A stretch of DNA of 35,195 nucleotides from Minisyncoccota bacterium (GTDB lineage: Bacteria; Patescibacteriota; Microgenomatia; UBA1400; PJMF01). The stretch lies in the NCBI GenBank assembly GCA_029881675.1, contig JAOUMD010000010.1, forward strand, positions 1 through 35,195, read 5' to 3'. A program made the translations under genes and the position numbers. This document shows, piece by piece, positions 7,384 to 25,561 of the stretch (positions within the stretch are counted from its first letter, which is position 1; every line of letters starts with the position of its first letter). Under the pieces are notes generated by a model that saw only the letters and a list, made by a program, of their open reading frames with translations, did not search any database and had not been told where the DNA came from.

Positions 7384-9294
7384 TTATGGCGAGTAATTAA
7401 CTCTAATTTCTTCAAAAGAGGGTGATGAACCAATATTGTTTGTAGAAAAATATGCTTTGTATCTAAAACATTGACCAGGATTTTCATAACCTATTCCATT
7501 ATTATCTAAAGGTATTGGAGAATCATCAGTGAAGAAGGTAGCCCCAGTGCCATCTGGGCCAATATAATTATAGGTAGAGTTAAGACAGTTTCCAGAAACA
7601 GGATCAGTCACAGCTACCTGATACTTTAGTTCTGTCCCAGCTAGGACTGTATCTATAACTTCAAAACGATTGAATACTACAGAATAATTTGGATCAAAAA
7701 TACTAGATTCAAAAGTACCTTCAGTGGCAAATTGACCACCCGGTCCACCTTCTACAATCTTTAATTCACTAGTACTGTCGCCAGTTAGTACATAAGAATA
7801 AGCGTCTCCATCTGTTTCTAAAATAGCATCAAGGTCATTGACCCCACTATCTATTTCTATTCCACCACAATTGCTTGGATTTGTTTCATTGGTGATATCT
7901 ATAACTTGGTATTCTTGTCCACCAATTCCACCCATGATGATTTTGTTTCCAGGGACAGAGAGAACTGCCTTAGGGTTCATGCCAGATGAATCATAAGAGC
8001 CAATAGTGGATTGATCATTTAATTTACTAGAGGTATCAATGATAAAAAGTTCATTTAAGGAATCAGAATGACTTGTCACTATATAACTTCGTGTTCCATC
8101 AGTACTTACTACAACATCTTGGGCACCAAGTCCATTGACATCTGCCCAAGCCACAATACTTAGATTTGTAGGATCACTAATATCAATAATTTGTAATTCT
8201 GGATTACCATCAATGGCAACATAGGCAAAGTTACCAACTATAACAATCTCTTTTCCTGTCCCAGCTAAGATAACTCCATCTGAATCTAAAAGAGGTCTAG
8301 CTCCATTTTTAGAACTAAGGTCAAAGCTCCATAAAGTATTATTTTGGACAACAAGTCCAAGCTGGTCTGAAGTAACAACACTATCTGCATTTTGTGATCC
8401 TGGTAAAGCCACAGAACCAACTTCAATAAATGGAGTATTTAAGATATCAATGATAATAACTTCAGTTTGGTTATTATCTGCAGCTATATATGCATAGTGA
8501 GATTCAATAAAAACATCGTTGGTTTTATAACCATTAAATTCTCCATCAATCTGAGCTGTTGGAGGATTATCATTACTGATATTTACTTTTGCAATTGATA
8601 CTCCAGAAGCATTCTCTCCTGTTCCAGCAATTAGCTGGTTCTCGATAGCTGATATCGCTTGTGCAACACCTTGTTTGGGTAGATCTAGCTCTGCTGCAAA
8701 ATTTACATCTGGAACACACCAATTAGAACTCCCACCAGCACCTAAGATTATCTCTCCACCCTCACCATTAACTACTGTAGTCCCAGTTTTTTCTCCAAGA
8801 ATAAAGTCACTTTCTGTTGTTTCTATAAAAGCTAAGTTATCTAGATATCTAGTTAGGTATGATTGCGAATATATATTTGAGCTAAAAGGATTATTCCAGC
8901 TAATGGTTACTTCGATTTTCTTTGTTGAAGGATCAAGGTTTCCACTTTGGTTAATAAAGCCATTTTCATCTCTGAATACATCACTAATTACAACTTGTCT
9001 AGTTAGTCCATTTATAACATCTGTTCCAGCAGATAGGGTCCAAGTATTTCCATCCCTATTAGGATGAAATGTCCCATTTGTTGAAAAAAGTGACCAACCT
9101 CTTTCTCTAACAACTTTAAGAATTTCTTCTGTTTCTCTTAGTAATAGTGAAGCAGCAATTCTTTGTTGTTGTTGAGCTCGCCCATCTCTAGTAGCAAGAA
9201 TCCCAGAAAATAATGCAGGCAATAAAATGATTAATAGAGCAGCAGCAAGCAGGATTTCAATTAGTGATTGGCCTTTATGCCCTTTCATAATCAT
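7384..9294 (-). CDS. Giant prepilin with LVIVD-type beta-propeller
   Basis: The protein has 636 aa. A prepilin-like start (GHKGQSLIEILLAAALLIILLPALF, with Glu5) continues into a helix rich in Gln and Arg. About residues 190-530 contain repeats of the form xVIIIDILNTPxxxxVG, LQIIDISDPTNLSIV, LFIIDTSS and YQVIDITNETNPS. These are LVIVD repeats that fold as a beta-propeller. A C-terminal beta domain holds several Cys. A pilin-sized module carrying such a large domain can only sit at the fibre tip, so this is a candidate tip adhesin playing the part PilY1 plays elsewhere. It overlaps the upstream gene by 4 nt. Confidence 0.85.
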   Translation of the reverse strand: MIMKGHKGQSLIEILLAAALLIILLPALFSGILATRDGRAQQQQRIAASLLLRETEEILKVVRERGWSLFSTNGTFHPNRDGNTWTLSAGTDVINGLTRQVVISDVFRDENGFINQSGNLDPSTKKIEVTISWNNPFSSNIYSQSYLTRYLDNLAFIETTESDFILGEKTGTTVVNGEGGEIILGAGGSSNWCVPDVNFAAELDLPKQGVAQAISAIENQLIAGTGENASGVSIAKVNISNDNPPTAQIDGEFNGYKTNDVFIESHYAYIAADNNQTEVIIIDILNTPFIEVGSVALPGSQNADSVVTSDQLGLVVQNNTLWSFDLSSKNGARPLLDSDGVILAGTGKEIVIVGNFAYVAIDGNPELQIIDISDPTNLSIVAWADVNGLGAQDVVVSTDGTRSYIVTSHSDSLNELFIIDTSSKLNDQSTIGSYDSSGMNPKAVLSVPGNKIIMGGIGGQEYQVIDITNETNPSNCGGIEIDSGVNDLDAILETDGDAYSYVLTGDSTSELKIVEGGPGGQFATEGTFESSIFDPNYSVVFNRFEVIDTVLAGTELKYQVAVTDPVSGNCLNSTYNYIGPDGTGATFFTDDSPIPLDNNGIGYENPGQCFRYKAYFSTNNIGSSPSFEEIRVNYSP

Positions 9295-9785
9295 TCTGTA
9301 ATTACTCCTAATTTATTAAAATTATATGTTTCTACTTTTCCAGAATTACTTTGTAGCTGAAATGAAGCTGCAGTTGGGTTAAACCCTGAAATTTCTCCGC
9401 TATTTTGTAAAAAAACGATACTATTAGTAGAAAAATTAATATTTGTAATTGTGTTTGTTGCGGGAAGTTTGATAACAAAATTATCTGTAGCACTTGGATT
9501 GTATGCAGATCCAGTAAATAGTGTATATTGATCACTTTCAAGATAAATACCATAAGAACTGCCATCCCCAGAACCACTAGTATTTCCAGTCATAGCATTA
9601 AATTGTTGTGACTTTAAATCTGAAACAATTGATTGACTCCCAGTAGCAAAACTGGCTGTAGGAATAAGGTTAGAAAGACTGATAGTAGAAATACCAATTA
9701 AGGTGGAAAAAATAGCGATCACAATTAATAACTCAATCAAAGTAAAACCAGCGTTTTTTTTGTTTAGTAAATTAAGTTTTATCAT
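9291..9785 (-). CDS. Minor prepilin (GspH/FimT-like)
   Basis: The protein has 164 aa. The leader NLLNKKNAG leads into the prepilin helix FTLIELLIVIAIFSTLIGISTISL with Glu5, then a beta-rich domain with no Cys. Its start codon overlaps the pilC stop (ATGA), and it overlaps the propeller prepilin at the other end, so translation is coupled through this stretch. It probably belongs to the tip-priming complex. Confidence 0.86.
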   Translation of the reverse strand: MIKLNLLNKKNAGFTLIELLIVIAIFSTLIGISTISLSNLIPTASFATGSQSIVSDLKSQQFNAMTGNTSGSGDGSSYGIYLESDQYTLFTGSAYNPSATDNFVIKLPATNTITNINFSTNSIVFLQNSGEISGFNPTAASFQLQSNSGKVETYNFNKLGVITE

Positions 9786-10828
9786 CTTTGGCCGACTTGA
9801 CCAATCAAGCCATAAATAGGAGCAATAATAGCCATCATCATTCCACCTACTACAACTCCTACAAAAATAAGCATGATAGGTTCTAGTAATGCAGTAACTT
9901 TGTCTAATGATTTACTTACTGTATAGTCCATTTTTTCTGCGATATTTTTCATTGAGCTTTCAATACGGCCAGTTTTTTCTCCAACTTCAATAAGTTTAAT
10001 TGCCACACTAGGAAAGACATTTTTTTCTGTTTTTAAGACTTGTGAGAACTGTTTACCCTCTGATGTTTCTTTTAATGCTTTGTGAATTAATCTTTCAACT
10101 TTCCTCTTTATGATAACTTCTCTAGCTAGTTCCAAAGCATAAACAAAGGGAATCCCAGAAGATAAAAGTAGGTACATACTTCTTGAGAAACGAGTGACAT
10201 CAATTTCTTCCATCAAGCGGGAAATCATTGGTAGTGAGAATAATACTCCAAGGAAAATCTCTCTTTTTTGGTTATAAAGAAAAATCATTAAAATAATAAA
10301 TGCAACAAAACCAGCTGTTAGATATGGCCAATAAGAAAGTAGTGTTTCAGACATGAAAATGAGAACTTTTGTTGGTAAGGGAAGTTCAACTTTAAGTCTT
10401 GAGAAAACACTAGAAATTTTTGGGATAACTACAACCAACATGGTAAAAAGAACCATTACAAAAACGAACATAACAATGATTGGATAAGTTAGGGCTGTTT
10501 TAATTTTATCTGTAAACTCCATTTCTTTTTGGAGGTTTTTGCTTAAATCAACAAGAGTAGTCTCTAAGTTTCCAGCCTCCTCAGAAGCTTTAATTAAATT
10601 AACTGAGATAGAGTTAAAAACTCTAGGAAATTTGGCAAATGTTGTGTGAATGTGATGCCCAGCACTAAGGTCTTTAGTGAGTTGTTCTAAGATTTTTTTT
10701 TGGCCACCTTTGGCATCTTCAAGTAAAGTTTCAATAGCTTCATAGGTAGGAATACCTGCCTCAAGCATAGTTGCTATGTTGGTAATTAGAACAATTTTGT
10801 CGTTTCCAGATATACGTAGTTTATTCAT
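9782..10828 (-). CDS. pilC: Type IV pilus inner-membrane platform protein PilC
   Basis: PilC spans the inner membrane and links the assembly ATPase to the growing fibre. The 348-aa chain has two T2SSF repeats (about 10-130 and 210-335). Membrane helices lie at about 112-137, 160-185 and 315-340 (IMLIFVGVVVGGMMMAIIAPIY, a typical PilC/GspF ending). Both repeats show the ASEEAGNLE / VGEKTGRIE core. It starts 10 nt after pilB, which confirms co-transcription. The length is a little shorter than the usual 400 aa because the cytoplasmic N-terminus is trimmed. Confidence 0.95.
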   Translation of the reverse strand: MNKLRISGNDKIVLITNIATMLEAGIPTYEAIETLLEDAKGGQKKILEQLTKDLSAGHHIHTTFAKFPRVFNSISVNLIKASEEAGNLETTLVDLSKNLQKEMEFTDKIKTALTYPIIVMFVFVMVLFTMLVVVIPKISSVFSRLKVELPLPTKVLIFMSETLLSYWPYLTAGFVAFIILMIFLYNQKREIFLGVLFSLPMISRLMEEIDVTRFSRSMYLLLSSGIPFVYALELAREVIIKRKVERLIHKALKETSEGKQFSQVLKTEKNVFPSVAIKLIEVGEKTGRIESSMKNIAEKMDYTVSKSLDKVTALLEPIMLIFVGVVVGGMMMAIIAPIYGLIGQVGQR

Positions 10829-10838
10829 ATTGATTTAA

Positions 10839-12566
10839 TTACTCTACGGCTTTTGTAACTCTCAAGACTTCTTTTACAGTGGTTAATCCTTGAGAAATTT
10901 TGCTTAATCCATCTTCAAACATAGTAGTCATACCTTCTTCAATTGCTTGCTTGGTGATTGTTTCAGCAGTGGCTTTTTCAGAAACTAAATTTCTAATATC
11001 TTCACTAAGTTTAATAATTTCATAAACACCGACTCGTCCTGAGTATCCACTGTTATGACAGAATTTACATCCTTTGCCTTTGCTGATAATTAACTTGCTT
11101 TTTTTGGCTGATTTTGTTTTGGGCTTTCCTTCTTCAGTTGCAGCATTTACATCAAAGTATTTGCTAACTTTATCTTCAGGGAAGAATTTGAGGAGTTCTT
11201 CACGTGGGGTTTCAACGCCCATCTTACATTTGTCACAAATTTTTCTAACAAGTCTTTGGGCAATGATTAGGTTAACTGTTGAAGCTGCTAAGAAAGGTTC
11301 AACTTCCATATCAAACAGACGAGGTAGTGCTGTGGCGGCATCATTGGTGTGAAGGGTGGAGAATACTAAGTGACCAGTCAATGCCGCATTAACAGCAATG
11401 CTAGCAGTTTCATTATCACGGATTTCACCAACAAAAATACTATCAGGGTCCTGTCTCAAAATTGATCTCAACCCGTTTGCAAAAGTTAGATTTGTTTTTT
11501 CATTAACTTGAACTTGGTTAGCTCCTTGAATTTGGTATTCGATAGGATCTTCTATAGAAGTAATATTTACCTCTCTAGTATTGATGTGTTTAAGGATTGT
11601 ATATATTGTCGTTGTTTTTCCTGATCCAGTCGGACCAGTACAAACAATCATTCCATAAGAGCTTTTGAAAGCTTGAGTTACTTTAGTGAGATCTTTTTTA
11701 CTCATGCCCAAATCAGCTAAGGTAGAAAATTGTGCTTTTGATCTAAGTAAACGCATAACAACTTTTTCTCCGTAGGCGATAGGGAGAATAGAGATACGAA
11801 GATCCAGTCTTTCATCATCAACTTTTGTACTAATCTTTCCGTCTTGTGAAGATAAATGCTCATCAATTCTTAAACGAGACATGACTTTAATTCTTGTCAC
11901 AACACGGTCATGAAGCTCTTTAGAAAGAATTAAAATATCTCTCAAAATACCATCGACTCTAAAGCGAATTAAAAAATCTCTTTCTCTTGGCTCAATATGG
12001 ATATCAGAAGCACCTTCTCTTTGGGCAGTCTCTATTAGAAGATCGATCATTTTCTTGACGGGTGGATCATGAGCGGCTGTAGTAATAATTTGAGAACGGT
12101 CCTCACTCAGTAGATCTTTAAAAAGTTTTTGGTAGTCAGTTTTATAATGGATGAAAGCTTTTTCTAAATCTTTGGCTGTAGCATAATATGCTTCAACCTG
12201 AAGTCCTGTCTTGTGGGCGATCATCTTTAATAGATCAATATTGTCAGGATTGGAAATAGCGACTTTGAGAGTTTTTTCATCCTTATAAAAAACTAAAGAG
12301 CCAGTTCTATGAGCAATTCTTTCTGGAATTATAGCTAAAACGGGAGGAGATAGTTCAACTTTGGAAAGTTCTACAAAAGGAATTTTAAGACTTGTCGCAA
12401 CAAGTTTTCCTAGTTTAAGATCACTAATAACTTTTTTTCTAATTAAGGCTTCTTCTGTACTAATATTCTCTTGCTTTGCATAGGCAATAACTTGATTTAG
12501 TTCAGCCTCAGTAAGGAGTTTGGCTTGAAGAACGATAGTCTTGAGCTTTTCTTTGGGCAGATGCAT
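10839..12566 (-). CDS. pilB: Type IV pilus assembly ATPase PilB
   Basis: This hexameric cytoplasmic ATPase powers pilus extension. The N-terminal 150 residues form the MshEN/T2SSE_N domain. The ATPase core has the Walker A GPTGSGKTTT, an Asp box around SIEDPIEYQ, the Walker B-like DSIFVGEIRD and the His box TGHLVFSTLHTND. A CxxC...CxxC zinc motif (CDKCK and CKFCH) lies near the C-terminus, as in PilB/GspE but not PilT. A Lys-rich insertion (KPKTKSAKKSKL) separates the two Cys pairs. The length of 575 aa is normal. It is the first gene of the pilus operon. No pilT and no prepilin peptidase lie in this window. Confidence 0.96.
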   Translation of the reverse strand: MHLPKEKLKTIVLQAKLLTEAELNQVIAYAKQENISTEEALIRKKVISDLKLGKLVATSLKIPFVELSKVELSPPVLAIIPERIAHRTGSLVFYKDEKTLKVAISNPDNIDLLKMIAHKTGLQVEAYYATAKDLEKAFIHYKTDYQKLFKDLLSEDRSQIITTAAHDPPVKKMIDLLIETAQREGASDIHIEPRERDFLIRFRVDGILRDILILSKELHDRVVTRIKVMSRLRIDEHLSSQDGKISTKVDDERLDLRISILPIAYGEKVVMRLLRSKAQFSTLADLGMSKKDLTKVTQAFKSSYGMIVCTGPTGSGKTTTIYTILKHINTREVNITSIEDPIEYQIQGANQVQVNEKTNLTFANGLRSILRQDPDSIFVGEIRDNETASIAVNAALTGHLVFSTLHTNDAATALPRLFDMEVEPFLAASTVNLIIAQRLVRKICDKCKMGVETPREELLKFFPEDKVSKYFDVNAATEEGKPKTKSAKKSKLIISKGKGCKFCHNSGYSGRVGVYEIIKLSEDIRNLVSEKATAETITKQAIEEGMTTMFEDGLSKISQGLTTVKEVLRVTKAVE

Positions 12567-14347: not shown

Positions 14348-14422
14348 TCTCCGATAGCTCAGCGGCAGAGCAGGAAGCTGTTAACTTCAAGGTCCTAGGT
14401 TCGAATCCTAGTCGGAGAGCCA
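14348..14422 (+). tRNA. tRNA-Asn (GTT)
   Basis: The acceptor stem TCTCCGA/TCGGAGA is a perfect 7 bp. The D arm is GCTC-AGCGGCA-GAGC. The anticodon loop CTGTTAA gives anticodon GTT, which reads AAC and AAT. The T arm is CCTAG-GTTCGAA-TCCTAG-like. The discriminator G and CCA are encoded (14419-14422). The outermost anticodon-stem pair is a G-A mismatch. The last 15 bases also encode the C-terminus of the recombinase on the opposite strand, marking this as the integration site of the adjoining element. Confidence 0.95.
14408..14422. other. Probable attachment site inside tRNA-Asn
   Basis: The 3-prime 15 bases of the tRNA overlap the last codons of the recombinase gene (reading W-L-S-D-stop on the minus strand). 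This places one element junction at or very near here. I found no second copy of the tRNA 3-prime end in the window. Serine recombinases need only a 2-bp shared core, so the absence does not disprove it. Confidence 0.5.
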
Positions 14423-15907
14423 ATTAGAACTTGGTGCATATTTTAGCACTAAGTTAAACGGAAATTTAACCGTATATCGCAGTATTTCATCATCTAAAGT
14501 TACGTTCGAAAGTACTAAGTTTAACAAAGCTCTTTTTTCTAGTGGTTTAGAACGGGAGAAGATGTCAGCAGAGCGTGATCCAATTTCCACCAGATGCGAA
14601 GTCGTCATGTAGTATTCTTTATTGGCTAATTCTAACTTAGCAATTTGCTCTCTTAGATCGTGGATCTTATCTTCATTTTTTTTCTTTATTTCAAGAAAGT
14701 GTTCCATAGTAATATACCCATCTAATTGGTTGTCGTATGCAGTTGTTGTGCGAGTCTCAAATCTTTTTATTTCTCCGTTCAAATGATTAAGCTCTTTTTC
14801 AAAGAAAGAGTTTTTATCTTTGTGAGATTCTTTCAGGGAGCGGGTTATTTCTTCTAGTTTTTCTTTTGGTACTTTGAGGTTATCAAATATATTGAAGAAC
14901 TGTTCGTCTATTGTTGATTCTTTGACGCTTTTAACCTTCTCATGTTTTTTGTGATAGTTGGTGCAATGATAATAAACATGGTGATTATATTTACCACTTT
15001 TTAATTTTCTTTTTTTACGCTCTGGTGTGATTCTACAACCACACTTATAGCAAGTAATTAAACCTCGGTACGCAAACTCTAAGCCAGCGTATTTGAAGGG
15101 TTGTGTTCTTTGATTTCTTTTATTTAGAAGATCTTGGGCTTTTTGAAAAGTCTCATTGTTAATGAATAGTTCGTAATTATGTGAGTATTCTTTGTCTCCA
15201 TGCTCAATGATTCCAATATAAAATTTTTTGGTAAGAATAAAGTGAACCATACTCTTAGATTTGTTGATGTTAAATTTCTTTTTTAGTTTATTGGAAATGT
15301 TGAGGATTGAGTAGTTCTCACTTACGTACCAATCAAAGATTTGTTTTACTACGAGGGAGTTAAACTTATCAGGAACTATCCACTTTTTCTTGCTCTCTAA
15401 GGTGACATTTTTATACCCAAAGGGAGCCATGCCTGGCAACTCACCGTTGTCTAATTTTCTTTTACGCGAGATGCGCTCATCATCTTTAAGCCTGTTTATG
15501 GTTTGTTTTGCTAAAAAAACTTTTAAGTCCCAGTCTTGAATATCTCTCCCAGTGGATTCTTTTGTGATTATGAGTCTGTCATTAACAAAATGGATTTGCT
15601 TATCATATTCTAGTCTCAGGTTATCTAAATCAACAGCATCTCTAAAGTTTCTAGTAATGCGATCTACTCTGTAGGTGATAATTGCAGCAATTTTTTTATT
15701 TTTTCTAACATAATCAATCATTTCATTGAACTTTTTTCTTATTTTTCTATCAGCACTTTCTTGAAAAACGAACTCGTCTTTTTCATCAACTGTAAAACCT
15801 TTTTTTCCAGCATATTTTCTTAAAGCAGGGAGCTGTATTTCTTTTAGTGATAGCCCTTCTTCTTCCTGACGTTTAGTAGAGACGCGGGCTAATATGACTG
15901 CCTTCAT
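14408..15907 (-). CDS. Large serine recombinase (integrase)
   Basis: This enzyme would integrate and excise the element by serine-mediated strand exchange. The N-terminal resolvase domain starts MKAVILARVSTKRQ with the catalytic Ser near residue 10 and an RVDRITRN motif. A recombinase domain with GMAPFGYK follows, then a zinc ribbon (CYKCGCRITPE...YHC), then a long coiled coil of about 370-430, as in large serine integrases. The length is 499 aa. Its final residues (NWLSD) and stop come from tRNA-Asn. The start overlaps the xis-like gene by 4 nt. Confidence 0.93.
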   Translation of the reverse strand: MKAVILARVSTKRQEEEGLSLKEIQLPALRKYAGKKGFTVDEKDEFVFQESADRKIRKKFNEMIDYVRKNKKIAAIITYRVDRITRNFRDAVDLDNLRLEYDKQIHFVNDRLIITKESTGRDIQDWDLKVFLAKQTINRLKDDERISRKRKLDNGELPGMAPFGYKNVTLESKKKWIVPDKFNSLVVKQIFDWYVSENYSILNISNKLKKKFNINKSKSMVHFILTKKFYIGIIEHGDKEYSHNYELFINNETFQKAQDLLNKRNQRTQPFKYAGLEFAYRGLITCYKCGCRITPERKKRKLKSGKYNHHVYYHCTNYHKKHEKVKSVKESTIDEQFFNIFDNLKVPKEKLEEITRSLKESHKDKNSFFEKELNHLNGEIKRFETRTTTAYDNQLDGYITMEHFLEIKKKNEDKIHDLREQIAKLELANKEYYMTTSHLVEIGSRSADIFSRSKPLEKRALLNLVLSNVTLDDEILRYTVKFPFNLVLKYAPSSNWLSD

Positions 15908-16095
15908 GCTTTTCGCCCTTCTTTTTTTACTTTTGATTTTGTGATGAATTCTTCCAGAGTTTCTTTACTAATTCTGTATTGTTTGCCAAATTTATAAGCT
16001 GGGAGTTTACCGTTTTTTGCCCATCTAAAAATGGTCATGTAGCTCATCTTTAGAAGATCAGCGACTTCATACAGAGTATAAAATTTATCATTCAT
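15904..16095 (-). CDS. Excisionase-like HTH protein
   Basis: The protein has 63 aa. TLYEVADLLKMSYMTIFRWAKNGKLPAYKFGKQYRI is the MerR-like winged helix of the HTH_17/excisionase family. It precedes the recombinase with an ATGA overlap, so the two are produced together. It is the natural candidate for the directionality factor that lets the recombinase excise the element, or for a local repressor. Its promoter is clearly recognisable. Confidence 0.88.
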   Translation of the reverse strand: MNDKFYTLYEVADLLKMSYMTIFRWAKNGKLPAYKFGKQYRISKETLEEFITKSKVKKEGRKA

Positions 16096-16105
16096 ATTTA
16101 ACTTT

Positions 16106-16134
16106 ATTTTACATTAATTAACATATTTAGACAA
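16106..16134 (-). promoter_or_regulatory. Promoter of the xis-int operon
   Basis: On the minus strand TTGTCT (16129-16134), a 17-nt spacer and TAAAAT (16106-16111) lie 10 nt before the ATG at 16095. Transcription of xis-int is therefore separate from the upstream rep genes. Confidence 0.7.
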
Positions 16135-16140
16135 CAATCA

Positions 16141-17253
16141 CTAAATATCAAATACCTGAATAGGTCTAAATCTTTCAGTTTCTGAAATAATTTTATTTAT
16201 TAGCAGTTCTTTTTTTTGGTTTACAACGGACTCAGATTTGTTCTTGAATGAGTACCATGCACTTGACCCAGCTGGAAATACTATCTCTCTTGCAGTTCTA
16301 AGATCATGTTCATTGACTATGTTTTGGAAACCGAGGTATTGAAGAAGGAAGCTAGGTTTTAGTTCAGGATTGCTTCTGGCTAATGATAATAGTTGGTCAG
16401 AAAATGGCTTATCATCTTTTTTAGTAAAAATTATTTTTTCTTTTATCTCGTTGAGAGTAAGCAAGCATATTAATTTAGCAACTTTAGTTGAAAATAAATT
16501 GCCAAACGTTGGTTCAATATCCTGATTAATTTTTTTAAGAACAGTACGGATTCTTTTTCGATTATTTAACCGAATTTCCACCCTCAGTACCTCAAAAGGA
16601 GGGCTTTTTCTTTGTTTGAGCTTAACTGTATGAAAAAAATCACGCTGAGGAGCTTTGTCATTGTCAACGCTTTTCTTTGGGCTGATATTTGCTTTTGCTA
16701 GATCTTTCATCTTGTCATAAAAAATTATTTCAAAAGTGTTGGTGCGGTAGCTAAGACTATGACCTTCGTTTCTGTAATCTGCTTGATTTGCATCAAAAAC
16801 TTTACTGATGTTTGCTCTTCTAATTTCATCCATATAGGTGAAAGGAAATGAATAATCAGTTAAGACAAAATTTTTCCCATAATCAATTTTTGAAACAAGA
16901 GAGGTTGAAAGCTGTTCTAGCTCAATCTTCACTCCCATTTCTAGCAATGTGTCTTGGAGCCTATGAAGCACCTTGATAAAATCATCTTCGGAGACTTCAT
17001 CAAGATTGTTGCCAAACATGAGCTTAGGAATTGAAAATTTGATATATAGGGTTCTTTGTATGCCCATAGGTCTAACGTGCTTATAGAGTGTTAGGTTGGG
17101 TCTATATTCTCCTTCTATTTGTTTGTAGTTTTGTACTGATCTTTGATATTGCTTGAAAGAAGCAAGCACAAATTTTGCATTAGGAGTAAATTTTTCAGGA
17201 TCAATAATTTGGAAGTCAGGATAGTTAATCACTAACACTATGGTATCTATCAT
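16141..17253 (-). CDS. Gene II/X-type rolling-circle replication protein
   Basis: The protein has 370 aa. It begins MIDTIVLVI, the usual opening of phage/plasmid replication proteins of the gene II/X (Phage_CRI) group. It carries FEIIFYDKMKDLAK and FEVLRVEIRLNNRKRIR, which match the YDK and LR-x-E-x-R blocks of that family. These proteins nick the double-strand origin and start rolling-circle replication of filamentous phages and small plasmids. I cannot point to the catalytic Tyr with certainty. It overlaps the SpoVG-like gene by 29 nt. It suggests the element has a circular, self-replicating stage. Confidence 0.72.
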   Translation of the reverse strand: MIDTIVLVINYPDFQIIDPEKFTPNAKFVLASFKQYQRSVQNYKQIEGEYRPNLTLYKHVRPMGIQRTLYIKFSIPKLMFGNNLDEVSEDDFIKVLHRLQDTLLEMGVKIELEQLSTSLVSKIDYGKNFVLTDYSFPFTYMDEIRRANISKVFDANQADYRNEGHSLSYRTNTFEIIFYDKMKDLAKANISPKKSVDNDKAPQRDFFHTVKLKQRKSPPFEVLRVEIRLNNRKRIRTVLKKINQDIEPTFGNLFSTKVAKLICLLTLNEIKEKIIFTKKDDKPFSDQLLSLARSNPELKPSFLLQYLGFQNIVNEHDLRTAREIVFPAGSSAWYSFKNKSESVVNQKKELLINKIISETERFRPIQVFDI

Positions 17254-17515
17254 TGTTATTGCTCATTACTTTTTCGTACTTATTTATAATCACTTGTTCT
17301 AATTCTTGGCTTTTGTCTCTATTGATTGGGTGATAAATGTTGATTGATGTGTTTGCCAATTTTTTCGTGGGGAAGGTGAGTCTGTAGCCACCTTCAAGCT
17401 TGGTATAAATACCAATTGATCCAAGGTAAAGCCACTCATCAATTACGCAGCTGGCAAAGGCAATTAAGCCATTATTGGGTTTAACTGGAGTAATTTCTAC
17501 TTCGTTAATTATCAT
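17225..17515 (-). CDS. SpoVG-like RNA/DNA-binding protein
   Basis: The protein has 96 aa. The core EVEITPVKPNNGLIAFASCVID...GGYRLTFPTKK...IYHPINRDKSQELEQVIINKYEKV follows the SpoVG fold in order, including the FPxKK and HPIN signatures. SpoVG proteins bind nucleic acid and tune gene expression in Firmicutes and are also found on mobile elements. The position between a small unknown gene and rep suggests control of replication or rep expression. The overlaps with both neighbours imply one transcript. Confidence 0.78.
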   Translation of the reverse strand: MIINEVEITPVKPNNGLIAFASCVIDEWLYLGSIGIYTKLEGGYRLTFPTKKLANTSINIYHPINRDKSQELEQVIINKYEKVMSNNNDRYHSVSD

Positions 17516-17720
17516 GACTTCTTTCTGGGTAATACTTATCTCGATACTCTAAATCTTCTTTCTTTAGTCGTTGATCTATTTGAGAAAGTAATTCAAAGAA
17601 GGTAATGAGGTTATTTAATTCGTCTTTTTGGGAGAGGGGATTTTCTGTAGAAGAACAGTCAGCATCATTTGGATGTGAAGAATGTTGTTCGCTAGTAGTC
17701 GCTACGTTTTGTGTAAGCAT
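17505..17720 (-). CDS. Small acidic protein of unknown function
   Basis: The protein has 71 aa with no recognisable family. The first 30 residues are polar, probably disordered, and rich in Ser, Asn and His. Residues 32-58 (DELNNLITFFELLSQIDQRLKKEDLEY) should form an amphipathic helix. It overlaps the SpoVG-like gene by 11 nt and appears to be first in that operon. A perfect 8-bp inverted repeat lies 2 nt before its ATG. Confidence 0.6.
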   Translation of the reverse strand: MLTQNVATTSEQHSSHPNDADCSSTENPLSQKDELNNLITFFELLSQIDQRLKKEDLEYRDKYYPERSHDN

Positions 17721-17722
17721 TG

Positions 17723-17753
17723 CACCAAGATTTCGTTACTTGTCTTCTTGGTG
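17723..17753 (-). repeat. Inverted repeat beside the start codon at 17720
   Basis: CACCAAGA and TCTTGGTG pair perfectly over 8 bp with a 15-nt loop. On the minus-strand RNA the stem ends 2 nt before the ATG and would hide the ribosome entry site, so it may control translation of the rep operon, or be an origin stem. Confidence 0.55.
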
Positions 17754-17762
17754 TATCAAAAA

Positions 17763-17803
17763 AAGCCACTAAGAAGAGAATAATTCTCAATCTTATTTGG
17801 CTT
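17763..17803. repeat. Compound hairpin in the candidate origin
   Basis: Outer arms AAGCC/GGCTT enclose AAGA/TCTT and a perfect GAGAA-TAA-TTCTC stem-loop. The arms are interrupted by short bulges. It lacks a T-tract on the minus strand, which argues against a simple terminator for the gp3-like gene. Confidence 0.5.
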
Positions 17804-17951
17804 CTTTATGTCTTATTATGGCTAATTCGCCCGCTCGACTTCTTTAATCCCAACTGAGTAATATAAATATATCACTGCAAAATAGATTGGTAAATAGGCA
17901 AAAAACGTGTATTTTGTTACACAAATATCAGATGCACATAAGAAAATTTTC

Positions 17952-18344
17952 TCATTCCTCCCGACTCCTCATTAGAGTTAGAGCGTCAGCCAACAACTCA
18001 GGAGAAATGTTTGAAAAGTTGTTTTGACTGCTATCTACTAGTGGTTCTTTCTCTCTCATTCCATGACTTGCTTTGAGTAAAAACATGGAGAATCTAGTGT
18101 TGTAGTTACCTTGAAGACCATTGGTGATAAGTAGCTCTCTCTGTGCATCTCTGAGATTATCCATAGTCTGCGAAAAATCAGGATATAGCTTCTCCCAGTC
18201 ATAAAGAGTCCTAGTTCCCAGCTTTAGTTTGGCAGAAAGACCCTCAATTGTTGGAAAAACACCCTCTTTTAGACACTTGTTTGTGTAAGTAGTTGCAGCA
18301 GGGGGGATTTTGGGGCTATATTTAGTTGGTCGTCCTCTTTTCAT
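17952..18344 (-). CDS. gp3-like small terminase (DNA-packaging) protein
   Basis: The protein has 130 aa. It starts KRGRPTKYSP, then FPTIEGLSAKLKLGTRTLYDWEKLYPDFSQ, a helix-turn-helix of the kind seen at the N-terminus of phage DNA-packaging gp3/terminase small subunits. NGLQGNYNTRFSMFLLKASHGMREKE is the second hallmark block of that family. Small terminases bind the packaging site of phage DNA. Here no large terminase or structural gene accompanies it. It could redirect a helper phage, as satellite islands do, or act simply as a DNA-binding regulator. The promoter is leaderless (6 nt). Confidence 0.75.
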   Translation of the reverse strand: MKRGRPTKYSPKIPPAATTYTNKCLKEGVFPTIEGLSAKLKLGTRTLYDWEKLYPDFSQTMDNLRDAQRELLITNGLQGNYNTRFSMFLLKASHGMREKEPLVDSSQNNFSNISPELLADALTLMRSREE

Positions 18345-18350
18345 ACTCTA

Positions 18351-18356
18351 AGTATA
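18351..18356 (-). promoter_or_regulatory. -10 box of the gp3-like gene, leaderless
   Basis: TATACT on the minus strand ends 6 nt before the ATG at 18344. It lies inside AACTATACT, whose perfect inverted copy is at 18444-18452 in the opposing hsd promoter. Confidence 0.6.
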
Positions 18357-18384
18357 GTTACTCAAGACGGGATTTGTGTCTTTT

Positions 18385-18408
18385 TGTAGGCATGTAATCA
18401 TTACACAA
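18385..18408 (+). repeat. Split repeat, upstream copy (TGTAGGCAT...CATTACACAA)
   Basis: TGTAGGCAT (18385-18393), then GTAAT, then CATTACACAA (18399-18408). The same words, fused as TGTAGGCATTACACAA, recur at 25715-25730 beyond the cargo operon. The site also contains the palindrome GTAATCATTAC. It sits between the divergent gp3-like and hsdR promoters, where an operator would be expected. Confidence 0.55.
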
Positions 18409-18446
18409 GAGCTATTTAGCTATCTTTCTAATCAAAAGTGGTCAAC

Positions 18447-18459
18447 TATACTCTATAAT
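18447..18459 (+). promoter_or_regulatory. Promoter of the restriction operon
   Basis: Two overlapping candidates, TATACT (18447-18452) and TATAAT (18454-18459), lie 47-59 nt before the hsdR ATG. Unlike most promoters in the window this one leaves a leader of about 40 nt. The leader has only a weak AAAGAAG ribosome site. No clear -35 box, which suggests dependence on an activator or weak basal expression. Confidence 0.5.
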
Positions 18460-18505
18460 GAGGGTAAGTTTTAATAATTAAAGATGTAAAGAAGTAGTAA
18501 ACATA

Positions 18506-20842
18506 ATGCCAGAAGCTAATGCCAGAATTAAAATCAACAAATTACTTGAAAAATCAGGTTGGAGATTAGTTGATTCTGATGAGGGTAAGGCTAGCGTTAC
18601 TGTTGAAGATCATCTAATAGTATCTCCAAATAAAGAAACAGACACACTGGGTGAAGATTTTGAAAAAGCTAAGGGTGGTTTTATTGACTACTTGCTGTGG
18701 GGACAAAATAAAAAACCACTATGTGTATTAGAAGCAAAAAGAAGTTCTATTCATCCTTTAGATGCTAAAGAACAAGCAAGAACATACGCTAATTCTATAG
18801 GGGTAAAGTATGTGATTTTATCCAATGGAGAGTTGCATTACTTTTGGGATATTGAGGTCGGAAATCCTGAAAAAATATATCATTTTCCAAATCAAGAATC
18901 ATTAGAAAAAAATGTTTCTGCTACTAAGGATACAAATGCTCTGGTTAATGAGGTAGTTGGAGATGACTACATTGCTTTAACACAGATGCCAGACTATCAA
19001 CTTGACCCTCGTTGGAAAACAGAGGAAGGAAAGAAAGAGTTGATGGAGAATGAAGGGCTTAGATTTTTAAGGTATTACCAAAAAGAAGCTATAGAATCAT
19101 TGCAACAAGCTATTGCAAAAGGTAAGAAGAGGTTTTTATTTGAGATGGCTACTGGTACTGGAAAAACACTGACTAGTGCAGCACTTATTAAGTTATTTAT
19201 TAAAACAAAGAATGCTTCAAGAGTATTGTTTCTTGTGGACAGATTAGAGCTTGAAAATCAGGCAGAGAAAAACTTTAGGGAATACTTGAGCCCAGATATT
19301 ACAACTGTGGTTTATAAGCAAAATAAAAATAGTTGGAGTAGAGCTGAGGTAGTTGTGACAACTATTCAAAGCATAATGCATGACAATAAGTTTGAAGACT
19401 TATTTAGTCCGACAGACTTTGACTTAATTATTTCAGACGAGGCTCATAGGGCTATTTCTGGAGAGGGTTTAAGTAGAAATGTTTTTGATTATTTCACTGG
19501 TTACAAACTTGGTTTGACTGCGACCCCAAAAGATTATTTGAAAAATTTAACAGATAAAGATCTGTCTGAAAAAGATCAGAGAGAGCTTGAGAGAAGAACT
19601 TTATTTTCTACATACGAAACCTTTGGTTGTAATAGTGGAGATCCAACATTTAGATATGATCTTTTAAGAGGTGTTAATGATGGATTTTTGATCAATCCCT
19701 ACGTATTAGATTGTAGAACTAAGATTACGGCTCAATTGCTTTCAGATGATGGATATGCAGCAGCTAGTGAAAAACAAACAGAAGAAGCGGAGGAAGAGGT
19801 CTATTTTGCAAAGGATTTTGAGAAAAACTTTTTTAGTCCTAAAACAAATCAGCAATTTGCAGAAACATTTTTTGCCAATGCACAGAGAGATTCCGTTAGT
19901 GGAGAAATAGGAAAGACACTTATATTTTGTGTGAGTCAAAGTCACGCCAGAAAAATGGCTCAGATATTAAATCAAATGGCTCATGAGCTATACCCTGGTA
20001 AATATAATTCTGATTTTGCACTTCAAATAACATCTAGTGTAAAAGATGCTCAGCCATTCACTATTAGATTTGCTAACAATAATCTTAATGGTAGAACGGC
20101 TTTTTTACCTGGATATAAATCAAGTAAAACAAGAGTCTGCATAACAGTGGGCATGATGACTACTGGCTATGATTGTTCAGATATTTTGAACATTTGTTTA
20201 ATGAGACCGATATTTTCTCCACAAGATTTTGTTCAGATAAAGGGCAGGGGCACCAGAAAACACCTATTTTCTTATAAGAAAAAGTTAAATGGAACTGAGG
20301 TGGCTGAGCAAAAACCAAAGGAAGAGTTCTACTTATTTGATTATTTTGCCAACTGCGAATACTTTGAGGATAAGTTTCCTTATGACGAAGTTATTGATTT
20401 ACCAAAACAAAGAGAAAAACTAATTCCGACTGGTTCTGATCCAGGTGTTTCTTATCCACTTCCAGACGGTCAAAAAGGGTTTACTCGGTATGGTCTGGAT
20501 CCATTACAAGGTATAAAAGGACTCAAATTAAGTGATGGTGGAATGAGAATAGATAGAGAGCTTTATCAGGCTGTTCAGCGAAAGAAGCAAGATCATGAAG
20601 AGCAGATTAAAAAATCTGATAAATTATGGAGTAAGTTTTCAAGCATTAACCTTATTCCAAAAGAAATTATTGATCAGGTCGAAGATATTTTTTATCTTTG
20701 CACACTCAACGAATCAATACTCAGTGATTTTAGTGCTAAAGAATTTTCCAACTATTCTAGTGATGCGGAGTTGTTTAATAGTCTGAATACTATTGGTGCA
20801 AAATGGATAGAAAATATAACTCATTTCTTAAATAAAGAATAA
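18506..20842 (+). CDS. hsdR: Type I restriction subunit HsdR
   Basis: This is the DNA-translocating and cleaving subunit. The N-terminal PD-(D/E)xK nuclease has GGFIDYLLWG and VLEAKRSS. The SF2 motor has MATGTGKT at about 214-222, SDEAHRAI near 310 and LTATP. The second RecA lobe carries TTGYDCSDILN and FVQIKGRGTRKH. The C-terminal 150 residues are the coupling domain. At 778 aa it is short compared with EcoKI-type subunits (about 1,100) and closer to the EcoEI-like group. It is the first gene of a tight operon, with the HsdM-S fusion 13 nt downstream. Confidence 0.93.
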   Translation: MPEANARIKINKLLEKSGWRLVDSDEGKASVTVEDHLIVSPNKETDTLGEDFEKAKGGFIDYLLWGQNKKPLCVLEAKRSSIHPLDAKEQARTYANSIGVKYVILSNGELHYFWDIEVGNPEKIYHFPNQESLEKNVSATKDTNALVNEVVGDDYIALTQMPDYQLDPRWKTEEGKKELMENEGLRFLRYYQKEAIESLQQAIAKGKKRFLFEMATGTGKTLTSAALIKLFIKTKNASRVLFLVDRLELENQAEKNFREYLSPDITTVVYKQNKNSWSRAEVVVTTIQSIMHDNKFEDLFSPTDFDLIISDEAHRAISGEGLSRNVFDYFTGYKLGLTATPKDYLKNLTDKDLSEKDQRELERRTLFSTYETFGCNSGDPTFRYDLLRGVNDGFLINPYVLDCRTKITAQLLSDDGYAAASEKQTEEAEEEVYFAKDFEKNFFSPKTNQQFAETFFANAQRDSVSGEIGKTLIFCVSQSHARKMAQILNQMAHELYPGKYNSDFALQITSSVKDAQPFTIRFANNNLNGRTAFLPGYKSSKTRVCITVGMMTTGYDCSDILNICLMRPIFSPQDFVQIKGRGTRKHLFSYKKKLNGTEVAEQKPKEEFYLFDYFANCEYFEDKFPYDEVIDLPKQREKLIPTGSDPGVSYPLPDGQKGFTRYGLDPLQGIKGLKLSDGGMRIDRELYQAVQRKKQDHEEQIKKSDKLWSKFSSINLIPKEIIDQVEDIFYLCTLNESILSDFSAKEFSNYSSDAELFNSLNTIGAKWIENITHFLNKE

Positions 20843-20855
20843 TAGAAAGAAAACT

Positions 20856-23282
20856 ATGCTTAATTCGGCTACAAAGAGAAAAATTGACAATGCTAGAGAT
20901 ATTTTGGTTGGTAAAATTCCTATGCCAACTACTCAGGTGGAACAGATAACTTTAGCTCTTATTTATAAATTCATGTCTGACATAGATAAGAAGTCAAAGG
21001 CTTTAGGTGATACCAGCGGTTTTTTTGCAAATGGTTTTGAGAAATATGCTTGGGATAATTTGATGGACAAATCTCTTTCAGCAAGAGATAGAGTCCAGCT
21101 TTATAGTGAAGGTTTGGAGAAGATGAGTAAAAATCCTCACTTACCTCAGTTATTTAGAGATATTTTTAAGAATGCTTTTTTACCATTCAGATCACCCGAA
21201 ACTCTCAAGTTATTTTTAGAACAAATTGACGAGTTTGAATATGATCATAGTGAGGAACTTGGCAATGCATTTGAATACCTGCTCTCAGTAATGGGGAGTC
21301 AAGGTGATGCTGGTCAATTCAGAACACCAAGACATATTATTGATTTTATTGTAAAAGTTGTTGATCCATCAAAAACAGACTCTATTCTTGATCCCGCATG
21401 TGGAACAGCTGGTTTTTTGATTTCAGCATACAAGCATATTAAAGAAAAGGACTTAACAGCAGAAGAGCAGAAGAAGTTAACAGACAATTTTGTTGGCTAT
21501 GACATTTCTCAAGATATGCAGCGTTTAGCAATGGTCAATATGTATTTACATCATTTTCCCAATCCTCATGTTTTTGAATATGATACGTTATCTAGTGAGG
21601 ATAGGTGGGATGATGACTTTGATGTCATATTAGCTAATCCGCCATTTATGACTCCAACTGGGGGAATTAAGCCCCACTCCAAGTTTTCTGTTCAAACTAC
21701 AAGAGCCGAAGCACTTTTTACTAGTTATATTATGGATCACTTAAATGAGAACGGGAAAGCTGGTGTTATTGTTCCTGAGGGCATTATTTTCAAATCTGAT
21801 AATGCCTATAAATCTCTTAGAAAGATGATGATAGACAATAAATACCTTTGGGCTGTAGTTTCTCTTCCGGCAGGAGTCTTCAATCCTTATTCTGGTGTGA
21901 AAACAAGTATCTTGTTTTTAGATAAAAAGATTTCAAAAAAAACAGATAAAGTTTTATTAATCAAAATAAATAACGATGGTTTTGACTTGGGTGCTCAACG
22001 CAGGTTAATCAAGAAGAATGATCTGATTGAAGCAATTAATATAATAAAAAAATATAAAAAGGGCTTGAATAATGGTGAGGATACCAACTTAAATGATAAC
22101 CAATTAGCTCTCCTAGTTGATAAAAAAGAATTTAAGGAAAAAGATTATAGTCTTAGTAGTGAGCTGTATGAGGCAGAAGTCAGCGATCGTTTCTCAAAAT
22201 TTGATTTTGTAGAAATTAATTCTCATATAAATACAATTTCTCCCCCAAAAAAAATTAAGAAGACTGATTTTTTACAAAGGGGTTTATATCCAATTATTGA
22301 TCAATCACAAAACGATATTGCTGGTTTCACCAATGACAGTACTGCGTTATTAGAAGTAAGCAGTCCGCTAGTAATCTTTGGGGATCATACATGTATCGTT
22401 AAATATATTGAAAATAGTTTTGCTCAAGGTGCTGATGGAATCAAGATAATAAGTTCTAGTGAAAATTTATTACCAAAATATCTTTATTATGTTTTGAAAT
22501 ACAAACCTCTTAAATCGAATGGTTACCAGCGTCATTTTTCAAAACTAAAGAGATACAAGATTCCCCTCCCTTCATTGCTAATTCAGCAAGAAATAATTGA
22601 AGAATTTGATAGTTACCAAAAGATCATTGATGGAGCTAAGCAGGTGGTCAATAATTATCAACCAACCTTTGGAATTGAGAATGATTGGAAATTAGTAAAG
22701 TTTTCAGAAGCACCTTTAGACATAATTGACGGTGATAGAGGTGTAAACTATCCTAAAAAAACTGAGTTTACGAATGATGGTTACTGCTTATTTTTGAACA
22801 CAAAAAATGTTAGATCAGATGGGTTTTTATTTGATAATCTTGAATTTATAAACAGGGAAAGAGATGAGAAGCTAAGAAAGGGTAAGTTAAATAGAAATGA
22901 TGTTGTTATTACAACAAGGGGAACCATTGGTAACGTCGGTTGGTATTCATATGAAGTTCCATACAAACACATTAGAATTAATTCTGGAATGATAATTCTG
23001 CGTACAGATGCTAAGGAATTAAATCCTGAATATCTTTTTTATTTTTTACAGAGTGAGTTTTTTAAAAAACAGGTTGATAAAATGTCATCTGGAGCAGCAC
23101 AGCCACAACTTCCCATAAGGACATTAAAAGAAATTATTGTTGCAATGCCATCTCTAAGCACTCAATCAAAAGTTGTTGAAGATATTAAGAGCGATAGTTC
23201 ACTTGTAAAATCAACTCAACTTCTTATTGAAAAATTTGAATATAAAATCAAATTGCGTATCGATGAGATCTGGGGAAAATAA
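20856..23282 (+). CDS. hsdM-hsdS: Fused HsdM-HsdS (N6-adenine methylase plus specificity)
   Basis: The protein has 808 aa. Residues 1-60 are the helical HsdM N-terminus. Residues 130-380 form the methylase, with the SAM-binding DPACGTAGF at about 179 and catalytic NPPF at about 261. From about 425 the chain continues into two target-recognition domains of HsdS type. TRD1 ends with IPLPSLLIQQEIIEEF; TRD2 has RGTIGNVGWYSYEV and ends IVAMPSLSTQSKVVEDI. Both carry the coiled-coil conserved regions. One polypeptide thus replaces two M subunits and one S subunit, so the assembled stoichiometry must differ from classical type I enzymes. The next gene starts 2 nt later. Confidence 0.92.
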   Translation: MLNSATKRKIDNARDILVGKIPMPTTQVEQITLALIYKFMSDIDKKSKALGDTSGFFANGFEKYAWDNLMDKSLSARDRVQLYSEGLEKMSKNPHLPQLFRDIFKNAFLPFRSPETLKLFLEQIDEFEYDHSEELGNAFEYLLSVMGSQGDAGQFRTPRHIIDFIVKVVDPSKTDSILDPACGTAGFLISAYKHIKEKDLTAEEQKKLTDNFVGYDISQDMQRLAMVNMYLHHFPNPHVFEYDTLSSEDRWDDDFDVILANPPFMTPTGGIKPHSKFSVQTTRAEALFTSYIMDHLNENGKAGVIVPEGIIFKSDNAYKSLRKMMIDNKYLWAVVSLPAGVFNPYSGVKTSILFLDKKISKKTDKVLLIKINNDGFDLGAQRRLIKKNDLIEAINIIKKYKKGLNNGEDTNLNDNQLALLVDKKEFKEKDYSLSSELYEAEVSDRFSKFDFVEINSHINTISPPKKIKKTDFLQRGLYPIIDQSQNDIAGFTNDSTALLEVSSPLVIFGDHTCIVKYIENSFAQGADGIKIISSSENLLPKYLYYVLKYKPLKSNGYQRHFSKLKRYKIPLPSLLIQQEIIEEFDSYQKIIDGAKQVVNNYQPTFGIENDWKLVKFSEAPLDIIDGDRGVNYPKKTEFTNDGYCLFLNTKNVRSDGFLFDNLEFINRERDEKLRKGKLNRNDVVITTRGTIGNVGWYSYEVPYKHIRINSGMIILRTDAKELNPEYLFYFLQSEFFKKQVDKMSSGAAQPQLPIRTLKEIIVAMPSLSTQSKVVEDIKSDSSLVKSTQLLIEKFEYKIKLRIDEIWGK

Positions 23283-23284
23283 GC

Positions 23285-24793
23285 ATGAAGCCACTTTCTA
23301 AATCTGACTACATGCTTTTTCTTCGTCATCCAGCATGGCTGTGGTTGAAGAAGTTTGAAAAACATAAGCTCCCACCCGTTGATGATAACTTACAAGCTAT
23401 GTTCGATGCTGGCAATGAGTTTGAGAGCTATGCTAATAGGCTTTTTCCTGATGCAGTAAAACTAGGGTTCAATAACTACAGCGAGTATCAATCTTTGACA
23501 TACAGGACTGAGCAAGAAATAATTAGAGGCACTAAGATTATCTTACAAGGAAGATTGGAAGCCGATGGAATTACCTGTATTTTTGATGTTTTGATTAGAG
23601 TTGGTGATAAAGAGTTTGACCTGATTGAAATCAAAGCTAGTACAAAATCTAAGCCAGAACATGAATATGATTTAGCTTTTCAAATGTTGGTTTTAGAGAA
23701 GGCTGGTTATTCAGTGAGGAACATTTCTGTTATTCATGCCAACAAAGAATATGTGAGAGAAGGTGAGATTGATCCTGTGGGAATTACTTCTATTACTGAT
23801 GTAACAATGGAGGTTAAAGCCCTAAAGAGCACTACAGAACAGCAGTTAATAGAAGCTTTCAAGTTATTGAGTAGTGGAGAATGCCCAGATTTATCTCCAA
23901 GATATGTAAATAGAATAGGTGTTCCTAAAGTTAGGTGGTTTGAGGATTGGATGGAGATATTCACTACCTTGAAGCCCAATGATGATCCTTACAATGTTTA
24001 CAAAATAAGTTATCCAAACGCTGAGCAGATAGGAAAGTTAGAAGATGCTGGTATTACACAACTAGCTGATATTCCAGAAGATATTGCTCTTAGAGCTAAG
24101 CAGATCGCACAGATACAAACAACGAAGACTAATAAAAGGATATTAGAGTTGGATAAAATAAAAGATTTTCTTGATACTTTCCATTATCCTCTCTATTTCT
24201 TTGATTATGAAACTTTTTCTTCGGTGATTCCTCAGTTTGATCTGTGTAAGCCTTACACGGATTATCCATTTCAATACTCGCTTCATGTTTTGGATTCACC
24301 TGATGCTGAGCTTAGACATGTAGAATATCTTCATGCCGATAAGACAAATCCTATGCCAGGTTTACTAAAACAGTTAAATAATGATATTGGTGATAGCGGC
24401 ACTGTTCTCACTTGGAATATGAGTTATGAAAAGGGTTGCAATGATCGTATGGCTGCTTTGTATCCAGAACATGCTGATTTTTTGTCTCAGCTTAACGAAC
24501 GGATTGATGATTTGATGATTCCTTTTTCTAAGATGTGGTTTTTTGATAAGGATTTCTTTGGTAGTGCATCCGTAAAGAAGGTTATGCCAGTTTTAGCTCC
24601 TGAGCTTAGTTACAAAGAACTAAATGTTGGAGATGGTTTATTAGCTAGAAGGATGTGGACTCAGACGGTCTTAGAGGGCAGACATGAGGCTAATAGAGAT
24701 GAAATTATGGATGATTTAAGTAAATACTGCACCTTAGATACTTTTGCGATGGTTAGGATTTATGAGGAGTTAAAAAAGTTGGTTGAAAATTAA
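23285..24793 (+). CDS. DUF2779-family double nuclease (PD-D/ExK plus DnaQ-like)
   Basis: The protein has 502 aa. The N-terminal half has the Cas4/RecB layout: an initial LSKSDYMLFLRHPAWLW, then GRLEADGITCIFDVL...FDLIEIKAST, giving the Asp and the ExK of a PD-(D/E)xK nuclease. From about 300 a DEDD exonuclease fold follows: YFFDYETFSSVIP (Asp, Glu), then VLTWNMSYEKGCNDRM, then YCTLDTFAMVRIYEEL (last Asp). This combination is DUF2779, a family without an established role that I know of. It lies 2 nt after the M-S fusion and 3 nt before the glycine-zipper gene, so it should be made at matched levels with the restriction enzyme. Confidence 0.82.
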   Translation: MKPLSKSDYMLFLRHPAWLWLKKFEKHKLPPVDDNLQAMFDAGNEFESYANRLFPDAVKLGFNNYSEYQSLTYRTEQEIIRGTKIILQGRLEADGITCIFDVLIRVGDKEFDLIEIKASTKSKPEHEYDLAFQMLVLEKAGYSVRNISVIHANKEYVREGEIDPVGITSITDVTMEVKALKSTTEQQLIEAFKLLSSGECPDLSPRYVNRIGVPKVRWFEDWMEIFTTLKPNDDPYNVYKISYPNAEQIGKLEDAGITQLADIPEDIALRAKQIAQIQTTKTNKRILELDKIKDFLDTFHYPLYFFDYETFSSVIPQFDLCKPYTDYPFQYSLHVLDSPDAELRHVEYLHADKTNPMPGLLKQLNNDIGDSGTVLTWNMSYEKGCNDRMAALYPEHADFLSQLNERIDDLMIPFSKMWFFDKDFFGSASVKKVMPVLAPELSYKELNVGDGLLARRMWTQTVLEGRHEANRDEIMDDLSKYCTLDTFAMVRIYEELKKLVEN

Positions 24794-24796
24794 CAT

Positions 24797-25561
24797 ATGT
24801 CAAATAAAAATAAAAAGAAAATTGTTGATCTTGGAGTAGAAACTGGAGTTGGTCTTGCAGGAGCGGGGGCAGGATTTGCTATAGCTGGTCCCATCGGTGC
24901 TTTATTAGGTCCTGCAATTAGCCCAGTAGTTTCTGATTTTTTGAAGAGGGCATTAACTAAAAGAGAGAAAGACAAGATTGAGAAAGTAGCAATAATGGCT
25001 ATTCAGTCAATCAATGAAAAAATATCAAAAGGGTCTAAGCCAAAATTTGATACAAAAAAGAAAAAGGATAAGGCAAAAGAATTATTTGAGGGAGTTCTTC
25101 TAAATGCTAGAGATACTTATGAAGAGAAAAAGCTGCCTTTAATCGCAAATATATTTGCAGTTGCTCCTTTTACAAATTCACCTGTAGAAAATTTAATACA
25201 GGCTTTATCTATAGCTGAGAGATTAACGTATAGACAATTATGTATTTTGACGATAGTTGGTAATAATGGCTATGCAAACAGTCCAATTTTAAGTGATAAG
25301 CAATTTAAGGAACAGCATGTTGATAAGGCTCATGACGAATTTAGAGATGGTATTTATTACGATATTCTTCTAATGATAAACCAAGGAATTCTGGTGCAGA
25401 TGGAATCAGATTTCAGTCATATTTCAGGGATGGTTGTTATAGCAGACATAATACCTCAAAGGCTTAGGTTGTATGCCTTAGGAAGATTGATGTTTAATGC
25501 AATGATGCTAGATTCGATTGAAGAAAAAGATTTAACAGAGATTAGAGAAATTCTAAAATAA
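24797..25561 (+). CDS. Glycine-zipper protein, candidate membrane effector
   Basis: The protein has 254 aa. Residues 12-46 (GVETGVGLAGAGAGFAIAG then PIGALLGPAI) form a glycine-zipper hairpin able to enter a membrane. A charged segment follows (KRALTKREKDKIEKV), then a soluble domain with AKELFEGVLLNARDTYEEKKLPLIANIFAVAPF and IAERLTYRQLCIL. I recall similar two-part orphans near defence genes but cannot name a family. A membrane-zipper head and a sensor-like tail are the architecture expected of an abortive-infection effector; this is inference. It is the last gene of the restriction operon. Confidence 0.75.
   Translation: MSNKNKKKIVDLGVETGVGLAGAGAGFAIAGPIGALLGPAISPVVSDFLKRALTKREKDKIEKVAIMAIQSINEKISKGSKPKFDTKKKKDKAKELFEGVLLNARDTYEEKKLPLIANIFAVAPFTNSPVENLIQALSIAERLTYRQLCILTIVGNNGYANSPILSDKQFKEQHVDKAHDEFRDGIYYDILLMINQGILVQMESDFSHISGMVVIADIIPQRLRLYALGRLMFNAMMLDSIEEKDLTEIREILK

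Follow-up and report, generated by a model that had tools for sequence, protein, structure and literature searches.

What might a 636-residue protein do that begins as a type IV prepilin and continues as a beta-propeller? Its gene, an ATG-started open reading frame, lies in a pilus operon of the window, a stretch of 35,195 nt (contig JAOUMD010000010.1) from a Minisyncoccota bacterium. Here, we propose that it probably serves an accessory type IV pilus as a modular minor pilin, presenting a binding propeller at the tip (features in Table 1).

Prepilin motif and predicted fold

The protein carries a class III leader with Gly-1 and Glu+5, followed by a hydrophobic helix (residues 7-65). The Pfam N_methyl model scores it, taken alone, at 13.9 bits, under the cut-off of 21.2. 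In an alignment of 51 relatives that are 33-52% identical to it, Gly-1 is present in 49/51 sequences and Glu+5 in 51/51, and we therefore regard the prepilin motif as real despite the sub-cut-off score; at +1, 48 of the 51 have Gln in place of the usual Phe. The enzyme needed to process such a leader is encoded in the window's genome by a single Peptidase_A24 gene, on contig C39.

Fold readings are taken only from an AlphaFold2 model built on the 51-sequence alignment (mean pLDDT 90.2, pTM 0.74), as a single-sequence version reached just pLDDT 36.3. The model has a pilin module fused to a non-pilin module, the architecture of a modular type IV pilin. Pfam finds LVIVD repeats in two stretches (E 1.6e-12, 47 bits against a cut-off of 20.2), and in the model they belong to a closed propeller of seven blades (204-516) with a closing strand at 201-203. 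Foldseek places it with seven-bladed WD40 propellers, among them RACK1/Asc1 of yeast (target TM 0.75-0.77, 3.8 A), while sequence searches of the PDB gave no meaningful relative of the protein. Four cysteines (193, 476, 570 and 609) are near-invariant, each being kept in 48-50 of the 51 sequences, and may pair as disulfides 193-476 and 570-609.

An earlier note, made from the nucleotide sequence, had described a type IV prepilin N-terminus with Glu5, about four LVIVD repeats and a Cys-containing C-terminal domain. The first is borne out by the alignment, and the structure prediction that the note suggested as a check returned a closed propeller. The repeats do form a true LVIVD propeller, but the count was low; the C-terminal domain is a predicted beta-sandwich that does contain cysteines, yet two of the four conserved ones lie outside it.

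Table 1. Features of the pilus operon and modules of the 636-aa prepilin, in window coordinates
Feature	Position	Strand	Basis
pilB, assembly ATPase	10839..12566	-	T2SSE 427 bits
pilC, platform protein	9782..10828	-	T2SSF 162 bits
pilH, minor pilin (FimU/GspH-like slot), 164 aa	9291..9785	-	Pfam N_methyl 36.2 bits; synteny
636-aa modular minor prepilin (pilin module at the N terminus, then propeller and C-terminal sandwich)	7384..9294	-	ORF, Pfam, alignment, AlphaFold2 model
Leader and start of mature helix (KG/QSLIE, slash at the cut), residues 1-13; Gly8 precedes the cut, Glu13 is mature Glu5	9256..9294	-	51-sequence alignment
Pilin module, residues 6-160: alpha-1 helix 7-65, sheet strands 74-148	8815..9279	-	AlphaFold2 model
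Linker, residues 161-203: invariant Trp192, near-invariant Cys193, closing strand 201-203	8686..8814	-	alignment; model
Predicted seven-bladed LVIVD-type beta-propeller, residues 204-516, with Cys476	7747..8685	-	Pfam; model; Foldseek
Predicted C-terminal beta-sandwich, residues 517-636, Cys570 and Cys609	7387..7746	-	model; cysteine conservation
pilW, minor pilin (PilW/GspJ-like slot), 173 aa	6859..7380	-	profile matches; synteny
PilX-like minor pilin, 135 aa	6449..6856	-	weak PilX_N match; synteny
Putative PilM/PilN-like membrane protein with LytR_C domain, 374 aa	5323..6447	-	domain match and sequence
GspG/PilA-like pilin, candidate major pilin, 157 aa	4763..5236	-	profile matches

Operon, slot and distribution

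The operon runs on one strand in the order pilB, pilC, pilin, the 636-aa prepilin gene, pilin, pilX, PilM/N-like gene, pilin. It is tightly packed, neighbouring frames mostly overlapping by 4 nt or lying a few bases apart: the 636-aa frame overlaps pilH by 4 nt, pilH overlaps pilC by 4 nt, and 3 nt separate the prepilin gene from pilW. The modular prepilin occupies a fixed second minor-pilin slot after pilH, and this slot is PilV/GspI-like. In profile searches the operon's pilins match both T2SS and T4P models. Downstream of pilX, the 374-aa protein joins a PilM-like N-terminal half to a membrane helix and a LytR_C domain, and by its sequence may possibly be a reduced PilM-PilN fusion.

Full-length relatives were found in 74/374 genomes of the class, and full-length profile matches are present in other classes of the phylum as well. 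Named relatives come from Levybacteria, Amesbacteria and another Microgenomates genome, with the Levybacteria relative (contig of L009, genome G225) belonging to the same class as the window's genome. The order pilB-pilC-pilH-modular pilin-pilW-pilX-...-pilA recurs in nearly all long loci examined, other classes included. At four loci (L076-L079), pilB/pilC lie on the other strand from the pilin cluster or have several unrelated genes between them and it.

Within the window's own family the operon is accessory. In 26 of 27 genomes sampled from this family, PilC is about 30% identical to the operon's PilC, and the operon type itself occurs in this sample only in the window's genome and in G251; G230, from outside the sample, also has it (L077). 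The window's genome holds three PilB/PilC sets. PilT and PilD are each encoded once, at another pilus locus on contig C39. As the sole PilT is encoded there, the operon of the 636-aa prepilin is without its own retraction motor. The same genome has a second accessory pilus operon (L089, contig C29, 422-6008), whose 247-aa pilin in the PilV slot is followed by an enlarged pilin of 395 aa without a recognised extra domain.

Variation of the middle module

Same-slot proteins were compared with three separate profiles, for the pilin, the middle and the C-terminal part. The pilin and usually the C-terminal part are kept, and the middle varies. In L048 the middle matches DUF4082 and Lectin_like above cut-off, as does that of L105 from another class, and the L052 middle, 39% identical to that of L048, is lectin-like by similarity. 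One of two tandem copies in L101 carries the propeller and the second carries laminin-G lectin domains (174 bits). The middle of L049-L054 is unmatched by Pfam; sialidase-like or jelly-roll identities considered for L049-L054 and L060-L062 were judged by eye only and were dropped. LVIVD repeats occur without the C-terminal sandwich in L059, L104 and L106, and in L094 the slot holds a pilin of just 244 aa. Judged from these comparisons, the slot behaves as a carrier with exchangeable cargo, be it an LVIVD propeller, a DUF4082/lectin-like module, a laminin-G lectin or other domains.

How might such variety have arisen? In L043, L044 and L045, a group chosen after its large inserts had been seen, middles are 68-73% identical, against 43-47% for PilC, 34-52% for the pilin part and 47-49% for the C-terminal part; the PilC tree rejects a clade of these three (p-AU 1.8e-7), whereas the middle tree unites them with full support. 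L035/L038 have a weaker form of the same pattern. The reverse is seen between L044 and L068, where PilB/PilC are 75-79% identical and the middles 34%. Identity shifts near residues 190 and 515-530, that is, at the module borders. Across classes, the L096 middle is 43-45% identical to middles of the window's class with flanks at 22-29%, and the sister loci of L096 stay one clade in the middle tree.

Over all pairs the middle is neither more nor less conserved than the flanks (mean difference -0.006). Among 1380 within-class pairs, middle-minus-flank identity has a standard deviation of 0.070 with 27 pairs beyond 0.15, compared with 0.060 and 21 pairs for pilin-minus-C-terminal identity. Because the two scatters are nearly alike in width, we take only the few strongest outliers as exchange; with the mean near zero, a general rate effect does not account for them. 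One further candidate swap, L055/L067 (flanks 70 and 74% identical, propeller 39%), was set aside, as the propeller tree keeps the two as sisters with a long L067 branch; it is better read as probable fast divergence of one propeller.

The earlier note had also pointed to diversifying propeller positions across relatives, and these were not seen: mean column entropy is 1.75-1.80 bits in the helix, pilin sheet, linker, propeller and sandwich alike (1.78 bits in the propeller, equal to that of the pilin part), in a comparison of one genome per species whose scale is above within-species selection. Equal conservation of propeller and pilin is no less compatible with a structural role or an unchanging ligand than with an adhesin. 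In these alignments and trees, diversity in the slot arises by exchange of whole modules and by fast divergence in one pair, rather than site by site. More tentatively, and with the balance somewhat against it, the PilV slot could be an exchangeable tip socket, in which a cassette sits between a conserved pilin foot and the C-terminal sandwich and recombination between lineages near residues 190 and 520 would re-target the pilus to new partner cells.

Tandem modular-pilin copies within one operon were met at L082 (7749-11665), L101 (5369-10151) and L102 (9704-15758). The pilin parts of the two L082 copies are 84% alike, with middles and C-terminal parts at 49-50%.

Proposed role, precedents and alternatives

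In light of these findings, how might the protein work? The leader would be cut by the genome's one prepilin peptidase, whose gene lies outside the operon, and the N-terminal helix and sheet would take the second minor-pilin place, after pilH, in the complex at the tip. The propeller and the small C-terminal sandwich, too bulky for the shaft, would be displayed at the tip, where the propeller would bind a ligand on another cell or surface. Both the tip position and ligand binding are what we infer; lectin-like or laminin-G domains in the same slot favour a binding role. The candidate pilus-tip adhesin of the earlier note is, in this sense, a likely description: a processed-type prepilin, a propeller, a minor-pilin slot, lectin alternatives and the PilX2 precedent speak for it. 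A host cell as the partner is plausible. Some members of the bacterium's group live on other microbes.

The closest known system is PilX2 of the T4P-2 pilus of Nanosynbacter lyticus TM7x, a minor pilin with a heptabladed propeller that is a proposed adhesin needed for normal host binding, its deletion lowering host binding from 10.6% to 4.6% (PMC12206443). Compared by description, both are CPR minor pilins with a seven-bladed propeller from a second pilus system lacking its own PilT. PilX2 differs in having RCC1-type rather than LVIVD repeats, in having no predicted PilD signal where that of the 636-aa prepilin is clear, and in being a PilX by name, whereas our protein sits in a PilV/GspI-like slot. 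TM7x pilins show very low conservation beyond Saccharibacteria (PMC12206443). The carrier-plus-cargo design is known from Streptococcus sanguinis, whose modular type IV pilins PilB and PilC bear a vWA and a lectin module, respectively (PMC8179133, PMC9934059). There, too, a small pilin module bears a bulky one, and a laminin-G-type lectin is also found in the slot studied here; the 636-aa prepilin differs in its propeller in place of vWA and in its extra conserved C-terminal sandwich. PilC/PilY1 tip adhesins likewise place a beta-propeller at the T4P tip through the minor-pilin complex, as we suppose for the 636-aa prepilin. PilY1, however, is a separate non-pilin protein with a propeller of another family, and the 636-aa protein, with its propeller fused to a pilin, has no Pfam match to PF05567.

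We take IPR013211 to be the LVIVD repeat. On that assumption the bare pilin-LVIVD architecture is already known, as a survey lists a Falkowbacteria pilin of 860 aa with 12 IPR013211 motifs of unknown function (PMC8179133). That listing gives the motif only, without fold, slot or exchange. As far as the searched literature shows, in which no paper joined "LVIVD" and "pilin", three findings are new: the fold, the conservation of the slot, and the evidence that middles have been exchanged.

An alternative that we consider unlikely is that the propeller is a PilY1-like structural cap, priming assembly and stabilising the tip complex with adhesion secondary or absent. Its conservation, equal to that of the pilin part, and its fixed position within the minor-pilin cluster would fit such a cap, and PilY1 itself enters a tip priming complex according to work cited in PMC12206443. 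In TM7x, loss of pilX2 also changed how many filaments there were and how long they grew (PMC12206443); a propeller pilin may therefore have a part in priming assembly. PF05567 (PilY1) had 0 matches in 281 genomes of the class, which would suit a cap as well as the tip-binding reading, although control genomes were likewise matchless and the count does not establish absence. Against a cap, related loci have non-propeller middles or a pilin of 244-247 aa (L094, L089), making the propeller dispensable for assembly, and assembly alone hardly explains a middle swapped for lectin-like domains.

It is improbable that the operon makes a T2SS-like secretion pseudopilus or a sensor, whose module would engage a soluble ligand or a substrate undergoing secretion. 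The scoring of its pilins on T2SS as well as T4P models and the GspI/J/K-like slots would suit this, but a secretin and other T2SS genes were not seen in the window operon, and the TM7x precedent is an extracellular thin pilus. CPR bacteria lack an outer membrane, which we count against it as well. Still less credible is a competence pilus whose tip binds DNA in the manner of Thermus ComZ. Such DNA binding is known for large, modular minor pilins sited at tips (ComZ is discussed in PMC8179133), but the ComEC channel (PF03772) was not found in the window's genome (94.6% complete) by a search that matched 10/14 control genomes, which weakens a role in DNA uptake, and the lectin-type replacement modules suggest other ligands.

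Little is known of the means by which CPR bacteria recognise their partner cells, and a conserved minor pilin of a widespread class that would present a binding propeller, and that is uniformly placed in its operon, is a concrete candidate contact protein. Its exchangeable middle is a readable sequence trait, one that could be compared with partner organisms given co-occurrence or physical-association data.

Elsewhere in the window (14408-25561), a serine recombinase with Resolvase, Recombinase and Zn_ribbon domains adjoins rpoD and is followed by a type I restriction set (an R-like helicase and a fused methylase-specificity protein) and a DUF2779 protein; the region looks like an integrated defence island.
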